Shown in pieces: positions 37,763-42,623 of a stretch of 64,000 bases of DNA; the stretch's first letter is position 1; each line of letters opens with the position of its first letter. Origin of the DNA: Deltaproteobacteria bacterium (lineage in GTDB: Bacteria; Desulfobacterota; Desulfobulbia; Desulfobulbales; Desulfurivibrionaceae). Made by a program: the position numbers and the translations under genes. The stretch is from the NCBI GenBank assembly GCA_021802775.1, contig JAJZRJ010000005.1, positions 1-64,000 on the forward strand, in the 5' to 3' direction. Below the pieces are notes generated by a model. That model saw only the letters and a list, made by a program, of their open reading frames with translations, was not told the origin of the DNA and made no database searches.

Positions 37763-39682
37763 TTACAAATCCAGATAGGTATACCGCTTCAGCCCCTTGG
37801 TATACTCGCTGAGAAGCCGCATGCCCTCGTTGGGCCGCAGCCGGTCTTCCTTGATCGCCTGATCGAACTGCCGCTTCATCTTGCGGGCCAGGTCGTGCTC
37901 GCTGTACTGCACCAGAGCCAGCACCTTCTCCATGGTGGTACCCTCGATGGTCTCCTCGATGTAGTAGCCCGAATCCTCGTCCTCGTCGAGGAACACGTGC
38001 GCCTCGTTCACCCGGCCGAAGAGGTTGTGGATGTCGCCCATGATGTCCTGATAGGCACCGGTGAGGAAGACCCCCAGATAGTACGGCTTGCCATTGAGGT
38101 CGTGCAGCGGCAGGGTGTCCACCCCCTCCTCGTAGAGGTTGATGAACTTGGAGACCACGCCGTCGGAATCGCAGGTGATGTCGGCGAGCGTGCCGCGCCG
38201 CTTGGGCTCCTCGTGCAGCCGGTGGAGCGGCATGATCGGGAAGAGCTGGCCAAAGCCCCAATGGTCGAGCAATGACTGGAAAACACTGAAGTTGCAGAGG
38301 TACTGGTCGGAGAACTTGCTCTGCAATTCGATGATCTCGTCCGGGATGTACTCGGCGTCCTGATAGGCCTGGAGCACCTTTTCGCTAATGAGCCAGAAAA
38401 GCCGCTCCACCTCGGCCTTGACATCAAGGTCGATCAGCCCCAGCTCGAAGCGGGTCTGCGCCTCGGTCTTGTACTGCTGGGCGTCGTGCAGCGCCTCGAG
38501 CGGGTTATCCGGATTGATGTGTTTGTAGCTGTACCACGCCTCGTCCACCAGCTTGTGCTTGAGCACCGGTTTTTTCGGCTTCTCCTCCAGCACCGCCTTC
38601 TTGACGTTGCCGAAGGTCTCCACCACCAGCACCGAGTGGTGGGCCACCAGGGCGCGGCCAGATTCGGTCACCACCACCGGATGCGCCACCCCCTGGGAAT
38701 CGCAGACATCCATGACGTTATAGATGATGTCGCGGGCGTACTCGTTGAGCGAGTAGTTGATCGAGGAGTGGAAGGTGGTGCGGCTGCCGTCGTAGTCCAC
38801 GCCCAGGCCGCCACCCACGTCGAGATATCCCAGCTCGTGGCCCAGCTTCTGAAGCTTGGCGTAGAACATGGCGCCTTCGCGCACTGCCTTCTTGATCGTC
38901 TGGATGTCGGGGATCTGCGAGCCCACGTGGAAGTGGACCAGTTTCAGGGCATGGGGCAACTCTGCTTCCATAAGCAGCCGCGAGGCTTCGAGCAGATCGC
39001 GGGTGTTCAGACCAAACTTGGCGTCTTCGCCACCGCTCTTCTCCCACTTGCCCTTGCCGCCCGAGACGAGCCGCACCCGCAGCCCGATGTAGGGCTCCAC
39101 CTTCATCTTCTTGGCCGTCGCGACGATCTGGACGATCTCCTCGACCTTTTCCGCCACCAGGATGATCTTCTTGCCGAGCTTGCGGCCGATGAGCGCCGTC
39201 TTGATGAAGTGGTGATCCTTATAGCCGTTGCAGATGATCAGGCTCTCCGGGTCTTCATGGAAGGCGAGCGCGGCATGGAGTTCCGATTTGGAACCAACCT
39301 CCAGGCCGTGATGATAGGGACGGCCGGCATCGAGAATCTCCTCCACCACCTCGCGGAGTTGATTCACCTTGACCGGATAGACGCCACGATAGGTGTTTTT
39401 GTAGTCCGCCTCGGCCATGGCCTCGTGAAAGGCCCGGTTGATGCGCTCCACCCGGTTGCGCAGCAGGTCCTGGAAGCGGATGAGCATGGGAAAATGCAAT
39501 CCCTGATCCAGGGCCTCGTTGATCACATCGACAATGGCGATGGCCCCGCCCTCTTCCTTGAGAGGAGAAACGGTCACCTCGCCCTTGCCGCTGATGTCGA
39601 AATAGCGCAGCCCCCAGCGGGTAATTCCGTAAAGCTCCTTGGCCTGTTCGATGTCCCAGGCAGTCTTTTCCGGCTTCTCCAC
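37763..39682 (-). CDS. speA: Biosynthetic arginine decarboxylase
   Basis: The 639-residue PLP enzyme converts arginine to agmatine, the first step of one route to putrescine. The PVKVNQ segment near residue 100 carries the PLP lysine, DVGGGLGVDYDGS is the phosphate-binding loop, and the C-terminal CDSDG segment lies at the active site. The length equals that of SpeA. The start is a GTG behind GGGAG. No other polyamine gene is adjacent. Confidence 0.95.
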   Translation of the reverse strand: MEKPEKTAWDIEQAKELYGITRWGLRYFDISGKGEVTVSPLKEEGGAIAIVDVINEALDQGLHFPMLIRFQDLLRNRVERINRAFHEAMAEADYKNTYRGVYPVKVNQLREVVEEILDAGRPYHHGLEVGSKSELHAALAFHEDPESLIICNGYKDHHFIKTALIGRKLGKKIILVAEKVEEIVQIVATAKKMKVEPYIGLRVRLVSGGKGKWEKSGGEDAKFGLNTRDLLEASRLLMEAELPHALKLVHFHVGSQIPDIQTIKKAVREGAMFYAKLQKLGHELGYLDVGGGLGVDYDGSRTTFHSSINYSLNEYARDIIYNVMDVCDSQGVAHPVVVTESGRALVAHHSVLVVETFGNVKKAVLEEKPKKPVLKHKLVDEAWYSYKHINPDNPLEALHDAQQYKTEAQTRFELGLIDLDVKAEVERLFWLISEKVLQAYQDAEYIPDEIIELQSKFSDQYLCNFSVFQSLLDHWGFGQLFPIMPLHRLHEEPKRRGTLADITCDSDGVVSKFINLYEEGVDTLPLHDLNGKPYYLGVFLTGAYQDIMGDIHNLFGRVNEAHVFLDEDEDSGYYIEETIEGTTMEKVLALVQYSEHDLARKMKRQFDQAIKEDRLRPNEGMRLLSEYTKGLKRYTYLDL

Positions 39683-39867: not shown

Positions 39868-41193
39868 ATGCAATCGCGCCATCCGAAACATACCCCCTGC
39901 CTGGTCTACGCCAACCATCAGGGCGAGATCAAGGAGTTCCCCGAACTCCTGCTGGCCGGCCGCAGCGGCCATGGTTTCTACCGACCGGAACTCGCCGACT
40001 GCATCCCGCTGCCCGAGGGCAGCGATCTTTTTGTCCTGCCCCAACGGCTGCCGGTGGGCATCCATCCCGTGACCAACGAGGCGATGCTCCTCGATCAGAG
40101 TCCGGACGACCCGGACGGCGGCATCCAGGCGGTGGCCGCCTTCCTGGCGCCGGCCCACACCGCCACCTTCTGGGCCGCCTACGAAAAGGCGCACGACGAG
40201 GCCCCGGCCCTGTCGCTTTTTGCCTATGCGGCAGTGGGCTGGCACGACGGCCGGTTCTGGGCCTGCGGCTTCCGCAGCGACAAGGACCCCCGTCAGGAGG
40301 CCAACCGCTACGCCCCGCAGAGCATCACCAGCCGCACCAACAAGCAGCTGAAAACCCATCCCGCCAACCGGCTGATCCAGCACCTCGGCCACTGCTGTCT
40401 TACCTACCGCTGCCCGGCCGCGGTCAACTACTTCATGGGCAAGTGGGAGGCGCCGCTGCCCACCTCGCCGGTCTGCAACGCCCAGTGCGTCGGCTGCATC
40501 TCGCTTCAACCCTCGGGCTGCTGCGCCTCACCGCAGGAACGCATCGCTTTCGTGCCCACTCCGGCGGAAATCGCCGAAATCGCCGTGCCCCACCTCGAAA
40601 AAACCGGCCATGTGGCAAGCTTCGGTCAGGGCTGCGAGGGCGAGCCGCTCCTGCAAGCCAGGACCCTCGAGGCGGCCATCCGCCTGATCCGCAAGGAAAC
40701 GGGCATGGGCACGGTCAATCTCAACTCCAACGCCAGCCTGCCCGAGGCGGTGGAACGTCTTGCCCACGCCGGGCTTGATTCCATGCGGGTCAGCATGAAC
40801 AGCGCCCGGCCGGATTACCACACCCGTTACTACCGGCCCAAAGGCTTTGATTTCGCCAGCGTCAAGGAATCGATCCGGGTGATGAAACGCCACCGCCGCT
40901 TTGTCTCCCTCAACTACTTCATCCTGCCGGGCTTCACCGACGACCAGGCCGAGTTTGCCGCGCTCTGCGCCCTGATCGACGATTGCCGGCCCGACTTCAT
41001 CCAGCTCCGCAACCTCAACATGGACGTGGACTGGTATCTGGCGGCGCTCGGCTTCCAGCCGGCCGGCGAGCCGCTGGGGCTCCGTGCCTGGCTCGCCACC
41101 CTCAAAAAACGCTTCCCGCAACTCCGATTCGGCTACTACAACCCGCCGTTGCGGCCGCCCACTCCCGCCAGGCCCACCCGCAGGCGCCGATGA
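39868..41193 (+). CDS. Radical SAM protein, coupled to CarS-like/phosphoesterase gene
   Basis: The 441-residue protein carries the radical SAM cysteines C203, C207 and C210 in a CNAQCVGC motif, then GQGCEGEPLL and LNSNASLPEAV segments of the SAM-binding barrel. The first 190 residues are a separate domain with several Cys and Trp residues that I do not recognise, including a CCLTYRC cluster just ahead. There is no SPASM-like cluster at the C-terminus, which is instead basic. Its stop overlaps the ATG of the next gene (ATGA), so the two proteins are probably made together. The substrate is unknown. Confidence 0.85.
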   Translation: MQSRHPKHTPCLVYANHQGEIKEFPELLLAGRSGHGFYRPELADCIPLPEGSDLFVLPQRLPVGIHPVTNEAMLLDQSPDDPDGGIQAVAAFLAPAHTATFWAAYEKAHDEAPALSLFAYAAVGWHDGRFWACGFRSDKDPRQEANRYAPQSITSRTNKQLKTHPANRLIQHLGHCCLTYRCPAAVNYFMGKWEAPLPTSPVCNAQCVGCISLQPSGCCASPQERIAFVPTPAEIAEIAVPHLEKTGHVASFGQGCEGEPLLQARTLEAAIRLIRKETGMGTVNLNSNASLPEAVERLAHAGLDSMRVSMNSARPDYHTRYYRPKGFDFASVKESIRVMKRHRRFVSLNYFILPGFTDDQAEFAALCALIDDCRPDFIQLRNLNMDVDWYLAALGFQPAGEPLGLRAWLATLKKRFPQLRFGYYNPPLRPPTPARPTRRRR

Positions 41194-42623
41194 TCGCCGG
41201 CCTCACCCTCTTCCTCTTCCTGCTCTGGGTCAACCTGCTGCCGCCTTTGGCCAGCCTGACCTTGGCCGACCGCTGGAACCAGCCGCTTGACTTCGGGCTG
41301 CGCCTGCCCGACGGCCAACGGCTCTTCGGCCCGCACAAAACGATACGCGGTGTGCTGGCGGCCCTCCTCGGCGGTACCCTGCTTTTTCCTCTGCTCGGCG
41401 TCACCTGGCCGGTGGCCGCCATGGCCAGTCTGCTGGTGGTGGCCGGCGACCTCATCTCAAGCTGTATCAAGCGACGGCTCCGCCAGCCGAGCGGTACCGC
41501 CCTCTTTGGTCTTGATCAATGCTTCGAGGCGCTGTTGCCCGCCCTCTACCTCGGCAGCCACCTCGGTCTGCCGGTCTGGGTGCGGATTATCATCGGCGTC
41601 CTCTTCATACCACTGGCCCACGCAGGCGCCCTCTTCTGGAAGAAACTGCTCTTCCGGCCCGACATGCGCAACTACCCGCGCATCATCCGCTCCACCGTCC
41701 GCCTCCACGAATGGCGCGCCTGCCACCAGCCGTTGGCCCGCTGGCATACCTGGTTCAATCTCTCTAATCTGCTCTACAACGAGGTCTTTCTCACCTTCTT
41801 CTTCAAGACCATCGGCCGCTATGAGCAAGGGATGGCCAATGCCCGCGAACTACGGCTGGAAAAAGTGACGTTTGACCTTACCGGTCTGCCGCCCGCCTTT
41901 GACGGCTTCCGCATCCTGCTGCTCACCGACCTCCACCTCGACGGGGTGCACGGCCTCACCGACGCCCTGATCGCCCAGGTCAAGGAACTTGAGGCAGACC
42001 TCTGCCTCTTTGGCGGCGACCTGCGGATGAAGCACTATGGCCCTTTCGCCCCCTCGCTGCGGCGGCTCAAACGAGTGCTGCCCCACATCCGCAGCGACTA
42101 TGGCATCTTCGGGATACTCGGCAACCACGATTGCATCGAGATGGTGCCGGACCTTGAGGAGGCCGGCATTCGCATGCTGATTAACGACAGCCAGCCCTTG
42201 AAAAAAGAGGGGCAGACTCTCTGGCTCATTGGTCTCGATGACCCGCATTACTATCGGACCAACGACGAGGCCGCCGCCTTCCGCGCCGTGCCGGCGGGGG
42301 CCTTCACCATCCTGCTCGCCCATTCGCCCGAGGCATACCGGCAGGCAGCAAGCCATGGCGCCAGGCTCTACCTCTGCGGCCATACCCATGCCGGCCAGAT
42401 CCGGCGGCCCGGCCACGGCCCGATCTACACCAACAGCCGCGCCCCGCGTTGCACCGCCGAAGGGCAATGGCAATGGCAGGGGATGGTCGGCTATACCAGC
42501 CGGGGGGTCGGCGCCTCCAGCGTGCCCCTGCGCTTCAACTGCCCCGGCGAAATCACCCTGATCACCCTGCGCAAAAACGAAAAGTGCCGGCCGCCCACGG
42601 CCTCCGGCACGATATCCGCGTGA
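41190..42623 (+). CDS. Fusion of CarS-like membrane domain and metallophosphoesterase
   Basis: The 477-residue protein has a membrane part (about 1-165) with RLFGPHKTIRG, GDLISSCIKRRL and FGLDQ motifs, resembling CDP-archaeol synthase and related CTP:lipid cytidylyltransferases. A calcineurin-like phosphoesterase domain follows (about 225-460) with all metal motifs: D247/H249 in TDLHLDG, D277 in GGD, N312-H313-D314, H378 and GHTH at 397-400, close to YaeI, which acts on lipid A-related UDP-diacylglucosamine. I infer work on a nucleotide-linked lipid at the membrane. It is translationally coupled to the radical SAM gene. Confidence 0.8.
   Translation: MIAGLTLFLFLLWVNLLPPLASLTLADRWNQPLDFGLRLPDGQRLFGPHKTIRGVLAALLGGTLLFPLLGVTWPVAAMASLLVVAGDLISSCIKRRLRQPSGTALFGLDQCFEALLPALYLGSHLGLPVWVRIIIGVLFIPLAHAGALFWKKLLFRPDMRNYPRIIRSTVRLHEWRACHQPLARWHTWFNLSNLLYNEVFLTFFFKTIGRYEQGMANARELRLEKVTFDLTGLPPAFDGFRILLLTDLHLDGVHGLTDALIAQVKELEADLCLFGGDLRMKHYGPFAPSLRRLKRVLPHIRSDYGIFGILGNHDCIEMVPDLEEAGIRMLINDSQPLKKEGQTLWLIGLDDPHYYRTNDEAAAFRAVPAGAFTILLAHSPEAYRQAASHGARLYLCGHTHAGQIRRPGHGPIYTNSRAPRCTAEGQWQWQGMVGYTSRGVGASSVPLRFNCPGEITLITLRKNEKCRPPTASGTISA

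Follow-up and report, generated by a model that had tools for sequence, protein, structure and literature searches.

A conserved CarS-like/metallophosphoesterase fusion of Desulfobacterota, a candidate enzyme of an accessory CDP-lipid pathway, and its radical SAM neighbor

Introduction

Which reaction would unite a CarS-like membrane domain and a phosphoesterase in a single polypeptide, and does the radical SAM enzyme encoded immediately upstream take part in it? This question is raised by a gene pair in a 64,000-nucleotide stretch of a Desulfurivibrionaceae genome (GenBank assembly GCA_021802775.1, contig JAJZRJ010000005.1, positions 1 to 64,000), referred to here as the window. CarS is considered the archaeal equivalent of CdsA and counts among the enzymes upholding the lipid divide (PMC9385802). 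In the collection of papers searched, none mentions CDP-archaeol synthase along with a metallophosphoesterase. The initial annotation of the locus described both domains in one chain, coupled to a radical SAM gene, and guessed at a nucleotide-lipid modification pathway. We followed up these claims by profile, structure and genome-neighborhood comparison.

Results

Both open reading frames, including their ATGA overlap, lie where they were originally annotated (Table 1). The four-base overlap is peculiar to the window; in its relatives within the family, a gap of about 0 to 190 bp separates the two genes. A sigma-70 scan found no promoter-like site. The fusion occurs in 82 of the 258 genomes of the window's class and is full length in most of them, so the single chain does not stem from an error of assembly or reading frame. 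It is a conserved family that extends to other families of Desulfobacterota (L217 to L222).

Table 1. Features of the radical SAM/fusion locus (positions in the window)
Feature	Position	Strand	Support or remark
Small conserved protein, ~140 aa	37296..37715	+	Precedes the radical SAM gene as its neighbor at 37 loci (neighborhood clusters)
speA	37763..39682	-	Between the ~140-aa protein gene and the radical SAM gene
Radical SAM protein	39868..41193	+	441 aa; PF04055 E 2.7e-15; 61-member alignment; model pLDDT 93, pTM 0.90
N-terminal beta-strand domain, aa 1-145	39868..40302	+	Strands in model; no recognized family
CX3CX2C cluster motif, C203/C207/C210	40474..40497	+	Invariant in 61-member alignment
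GCEGEP motif, aa 255-260	40630..40647	+	Invariant in 61-member alignment
ATGA overlap	41190..41193	+	Sequence; fusion start ATG at 41190, radical SAM stop TGA at 41191-41193
CarS-like/metallophosphoesterase fusion	41190..42623	+	477 aa; Pfam and NCBIfam; 32-member alignment; 82/258 class genomes
CarS-like CTP-transferase domain, aa 1-154	41190..41651	+	Five membrane helices; 5guf E 7e-16; TM 0.68 on target
KTIRG motif	41337..41351	+	K50, T51, G54 invariant (32-member alignment)
GDLISSCIKRR motif	41445..41477	+	G86, D87, S91, K94, R95, R96 invariant (32-member alignment)
LDQxxE motif	41511..41528	+	D109, Q110, E113 invariant; archaeal CarS 5guf has LDQLD here
Positively charged linker after TM5, and helix 191-207	41652..41849	+	+7/-2 over aa 155-190
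Calcineurin-like metallophosphoesterase domain, aa 221-462	41850..42575	+	Metallophos E 1.9e-8; Mre11-type fold matches (Foldseek)
Metal-site motifs D247xH249, GD277, GNHD 311-314, H378, GHTH 397-400	41928..42389	+	Invariant in 32 sequences

The membrane part of the fusion has the CarS fold. Residues 1-227 scanned alone exceed the cut-off of the Pfam CarS-like family (PF01864, E 1.3e-10), a profile of 32 fusions matches the solved CarS of A. pernix (PDB 5guf), and the AlphaFold model, with helices at residues 2-25, 52-69, 73-96, 108-124 and 129-154, aligns with that structure in Foldseek at 28% identity. Like archaeal CarS, it combines five membrane helices with the KTxxG, GDxxxSxxKRR and LDQ motifs that define membership. 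It differs from archaeal CarS in its fused phosphoesterase, in the lack of GGGP synthase from the genomes, in a score of 54.5 bits against the NCBIfam CDP-archaeol synthase equivalog (cut-off 148) and in the end of the third motif, which reads DQxxE in 32/32 fusions, the archaeal comparison being the one sequence of 5guf. DQxxE is also found in solo proteins of Methylobacterium and Bosea and in those of loci L211 to L216, but not in L209 and L210. On the basis of this motif, we take the LDQxxE-type proteins as a putative bacterial branch of the CarS family. In a CarS-domain tree, the fusions form a cluster (99/99) that leaves the solo proteins outside; the long branch of archaeal CarS falls within the tree at an unreliable position. 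Bacterial CdsA belongs to the same CTP-transferase superfamily, and its type of reaction is probably alike; however, the fusion reaches only 12.6 bits (E 0.12) against PF01148 (CTP_transf_1), whose cut-off is 24. In L209 (5458-7204, reverse strand), a CarS-like gene whose product keeps the archaeal motif LDQLD overlaps an upstream SPASM-like radical SAM gene.

A linker that is weakly modeled by AlphaFold separates the five helices from the phosphoesterase domain. Its positive charge, together with the known membrane topology of CarS (PMC9385802), would orient the phosphoesterase toward the cytoplasm, the side on which CTP binds. The domain exceeds the PF00149 cut-off and has the complete DxH, GD, GNHD, H and GHTH ligand set of calcineurin-like metallophosphoesterases, with D247, H249, D277, N312, H313, H378, H398 and H400 invariant across 32 sequences. 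The "complete YaeI-like phosphoesterase" of the initial annotation is complete in every metal ligand; its likeness to YaeI holds at the superfamily level only. The top NCBIfam models for the fusion are the YaeI phosphodiesterase (88 bits versus a cut-off of 188), the LpxG UDP-2,3-diacylglucosamine diphosphatase (76 versus 350) and CDP-archaeol synthase. YaeI and LpxG share the calcineurin-like fold and the full metal site with the fusion, but since all three scores fall below the curated cut-offs, it is not a member of any of the three equivalogs.

Both halves of the fusion exist in Alphaproteobacteria as adjacent separate genes, on pMNOD02 of Methylobacterium nodulans and pB32-1 of Bosea sp. 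F3-2, with identities of about 38% and 40% to the respective halves and a range of 37-42%. The Methylobacterium halves are 39% and 42% identical to those of the fusion, and the phosphoesterase match starts within the linker, at residue 188. Unlike the fusion, these genes, titled "CDP-archaeol synthase" and "metallophosphoesterase", are two and convergent. In other Desulfobacterota, solo CarS-like genes (L211 to L216) adjoin a PHP-type (CehA/McbA-like) phosphoesterase gene in 6/6 loci, immediately in five and with intervening small ORFs in L214. The PHP-type fold is unrelated to that of the fused metallophosphoesterase, which makes it an independent phosphoesterase partner. These separate neighboring genes support the CarS-like and phosphoesterase domains as a module.

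Outside the window's family (f1), the fusion is linked to a CDP-alcohol phosphatidyltransferase gene, with 43 genomes having both, 19 the fusion only, 15 the transferase only and 154 neither (odds ratio 23, uncorrected for phylogeny). In 25 of these 43 genomes, the transferase gene shares the strand of the fusion and lies within 1 kb of it, preceding it in some genera and following it in others. The product carries the full DxxDGxxAR-GxxxDxxxD motif and PF01066. This linkage supports the earlier guess of a nucleotide-activated lipid pathway. The dedicated transferase is absent from the window's own family. Sequence and structure comparison establish the domain identities, the intact motifs, the fusion itself, the adjacency of split homologues and the phosphatidyltransferase linkage. 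In several genera of the window's family (L143, L145, L146, L224 and L225), a 2Fe-2S ferredoxin gene lies just 3' of the fusion; the window locus is without it. In L217, L218, L221 and L222, the fusion adjoins a divergent TIGR04013 B12-binding radical SAM gene, with a flavodoxin-like gene nearby that directly adjoins the radical SAM gene in three of these loci.

The complement of other lipid enzymes was charted in 58 genomes of relatives. GGGP synthase is found in none, LpxI in 55 (the window's own included), an ordinary, separate CdsA in 56 and PgpA in 53. The window's own genome encodes three CDP-alcohol phosphatidyltransferases; two PgsA-like proteins are present. The fusion was considered as a substitute for CdsA or for PgpA, and both roles are ruled out by the near-universal presence of these enzymes; an apparent anticorrelation with CdsA was an artifact of weak cross-hits. 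CdsA, PgpA and the three phosphatidyltransferases being present, the fusion is an addition to the standard enzymes.

The protein encoded upstream belongs to the radical SAM superfamily, with both PF04055 (Pfam Radical_SAM) and the CX3CX2C motif, and two further cysteines, C176 and C182, are invariant in its family. It falls outside the named NCBIfam radical SAM families (MoaA, BlsE, NifB, Tes and others); the best score is 30.7 bits against 284 for MoaA, and Tes gives no match at E 1. MoaA (GTP 3',8-cyclase) and BlsE (cytosylglucuronate decarboxylase), among the best weak matches, share the radical SAM barrel, but the protein scores far below both family cut-offs and carries a 145-aa N-terminal beta domain without counterpart in them. 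This domain had been called unfamiliar, and it stays so: no Pfam match recurs there among the 61 members, and every one of the leading fold matches in the PDB is itself a radical SAM protein, none giving a relative for aa 1-145. The search for a named family for the whole protein or for its N-terminal domain by Pfam, NCBIfam, PDB sequence or fold yielded none. Relatives number more than 560 in the genome collection, those from Bacteroidota, Gemmatimonadota, KSB1 and Calditrichaeota (names per the records) being 45-50% identical. A single copy of the gene occurs in 111/247 genomes of the phylum, and it is present in 39/39 near-complete relatives of the order, whether or not these have the fusion. 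Three contigs labeled Comamonas or Nitrospirae (L131, L079 and L130) carry radical SAM genes or neighborhoods like those of Bacteroidota or Desulfobulbales; the labels may be wrong or the contigs mis-binned.

Conservation of the gene pair is confined to the window's family, where the radical SAM gene adjoins the fusion, with order and strand preserved, in 20/20 fusion-bearing genomes; outside the family, none of the 10 genomes in which both genes were located has them on a common contig. Most genomes with the radical SAM gene are without the fusion. Within the family, the block also keeps the small upstream gene, a neighbor of the radical SAM gene in many Desulfobulbales whose product has no Pfam or NCBIfam match, and speA, an unrelated arginine decarboxylase gene on the opposite strand, so that adjacency alone is weak evidence of a radical SAM-fusion link. 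Genes for OmpA, OmpH, Fur, TyrRS, a FolC-like protein and TonB are likewise conserved around the radical SAM gene and look like housekeeping synteny.

Discussion

We propose that the fusion acts in the inner membrane as a bifunctional enzyme, serving an accessory bacterial CDP-lipid (phospholipid) pathway; we consider this reading evenly poised between right and wrong. Judging from homology and its intact residues, the CarS-type domain would transfer CMP from CTP onto a membrane lipid phosphate, yielding a CDP-lipid. A CDP-alcohol phosphatidyltransferase, suggested by the gene linkage, would then move the lipid phosphate onto a phosphorylated alcohol; in many relatives this could be the product of the dedicated neighboring gene, and in the window's genome probably that of a PgsA-type gene elsewhere. 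In phosphatidylglycerol synthesis, PGP phosphatase removes the terminal phosphate. By analogy, the fused metallophosphoesterase, predicted to lie on the same cytoplasmic face, may carry out such a step. For this pathway we infer which substrates are used, in which order the steps follow and that a phosphatase step is among them. In the window's family, which lacks the dedicated transferase, a PgsA-type enzyme would have to act as the partner, and this is the main weakness of the proposal. Nor does the proposal explain why a second route would be needed beside the existing CdsA, two PgsA-like proteins and PgpA. A role of the phosphoesterase domain as a CDP-lipid hydrolase or in regulation would fit its sequence equally well.

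One such alternative has the phosphoesterase domain cleave the pyrophosphate of the CDP-lipid made by the CarS domain, or of a related nucleotide-lipid, in a cycle of salvage or control rather than synthesis. LpxG cleaves a nucleotide-diphosphate lipid and is among the nearest named models of the domain; both active sites of the fusion are predicted on the same membrane face, and the swap of phosphoesterase type from metallophosphoesterase to PHP would preserve a hydrolase function. However, a futile cycle fused into one chain is hard to justify, and the phosphatidyltransferase linkage points to the CDP-lipid being used. We regard this cycle as unlikely, and favor the accessory synthetic pathway.

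Does the radical SAM enzyme belong to this pathway? The initial annotation guessed so, and the enzyme could be envisaged to alter what the fusion activates, be it a lipid or a head group. Besides the invariant adjacency within the family, the gene is commoner in genomes of the phylum with a bacterial-type CarS (12/13 versus 99/234; by family, 8/9 versus 35/79, p 0.012), a weak positive sign that phylogeny may explain, and other radical SAM genes adjoin CarS-like genes elsewhere (TIGR04013 in four loci, SPASM-like in L209). Against a shared pathway stand the separate contigs outside the family, the universality of the gene in near-complete genomes of the order irrespective of the fusion, and a family block that holds speA and the small gene in place as well. 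With adjacency limited to one family and the gene present without the fusion in most genomes, we give a common pathway roughly one chance in a handful. The best explanation is that the radical SAM protein is a widespread enzyme of the core type, separate from the fusion, whose gene came to lie upstream of the fusion gene in the ancestor of a single family; there, the two genes are likely coexpressed.

A role in lipid A synthesis, with the phosphoesterase as an LpxG/YaeI-like UDP-2,3-diacylglucosamine hydrolase and the CarS part as its membrane anchor, is very unlikely. YaeI and LpxG are the top NCBIfam models, but their scores are far below the cut-offs, LpxI is already encoded in nearly all genomes, so the fusion is not needed for lipid A, and the invariant catalytic residues of the CarS part argue that it is not a mere anchor. 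Synthesis of archaeal-type (G1P isoprenoid ether) lipids by the fusion is barely credible, for although the solved structure nearest to its CarS part is a CDP-archaeol synthase, GGGP synthase is absent, LDQxxE stands in place of the archaeal LDQLD and the equivalog score is about a third of its cut-off.

To conclude, the fusion enzyme is real, conserved and apparently undescribed, and its coupling to a radical SAM gene is a lineage-specific arrangement. A CarS-type enzyme conserved in bacteria without GGGP synthase, with a phosphoesterase as its regular partner and in many cases a CDP-alcohol phosphatidyltransferase too, speaks for a lipid route that is so far undescribed in bacteria. Tentatively, and with somewhat less than even confidence, we suggest that many Desulfobacterota and some Alphaproteobacteria possess a second phospholipid route, in which an LDQxxE-type CarS and a phosphoesterase (fused metallophosphoesterase, split metallophosphoesterase or PHP), often together with a dedicated phosphatidyltransferase, would produce a head group of its own or act on a separate type of lipid core, in parallel with the CdsA-PgsA-PgpA pathway, and which in one family may be coexpressed with a radical SAM enzyme.
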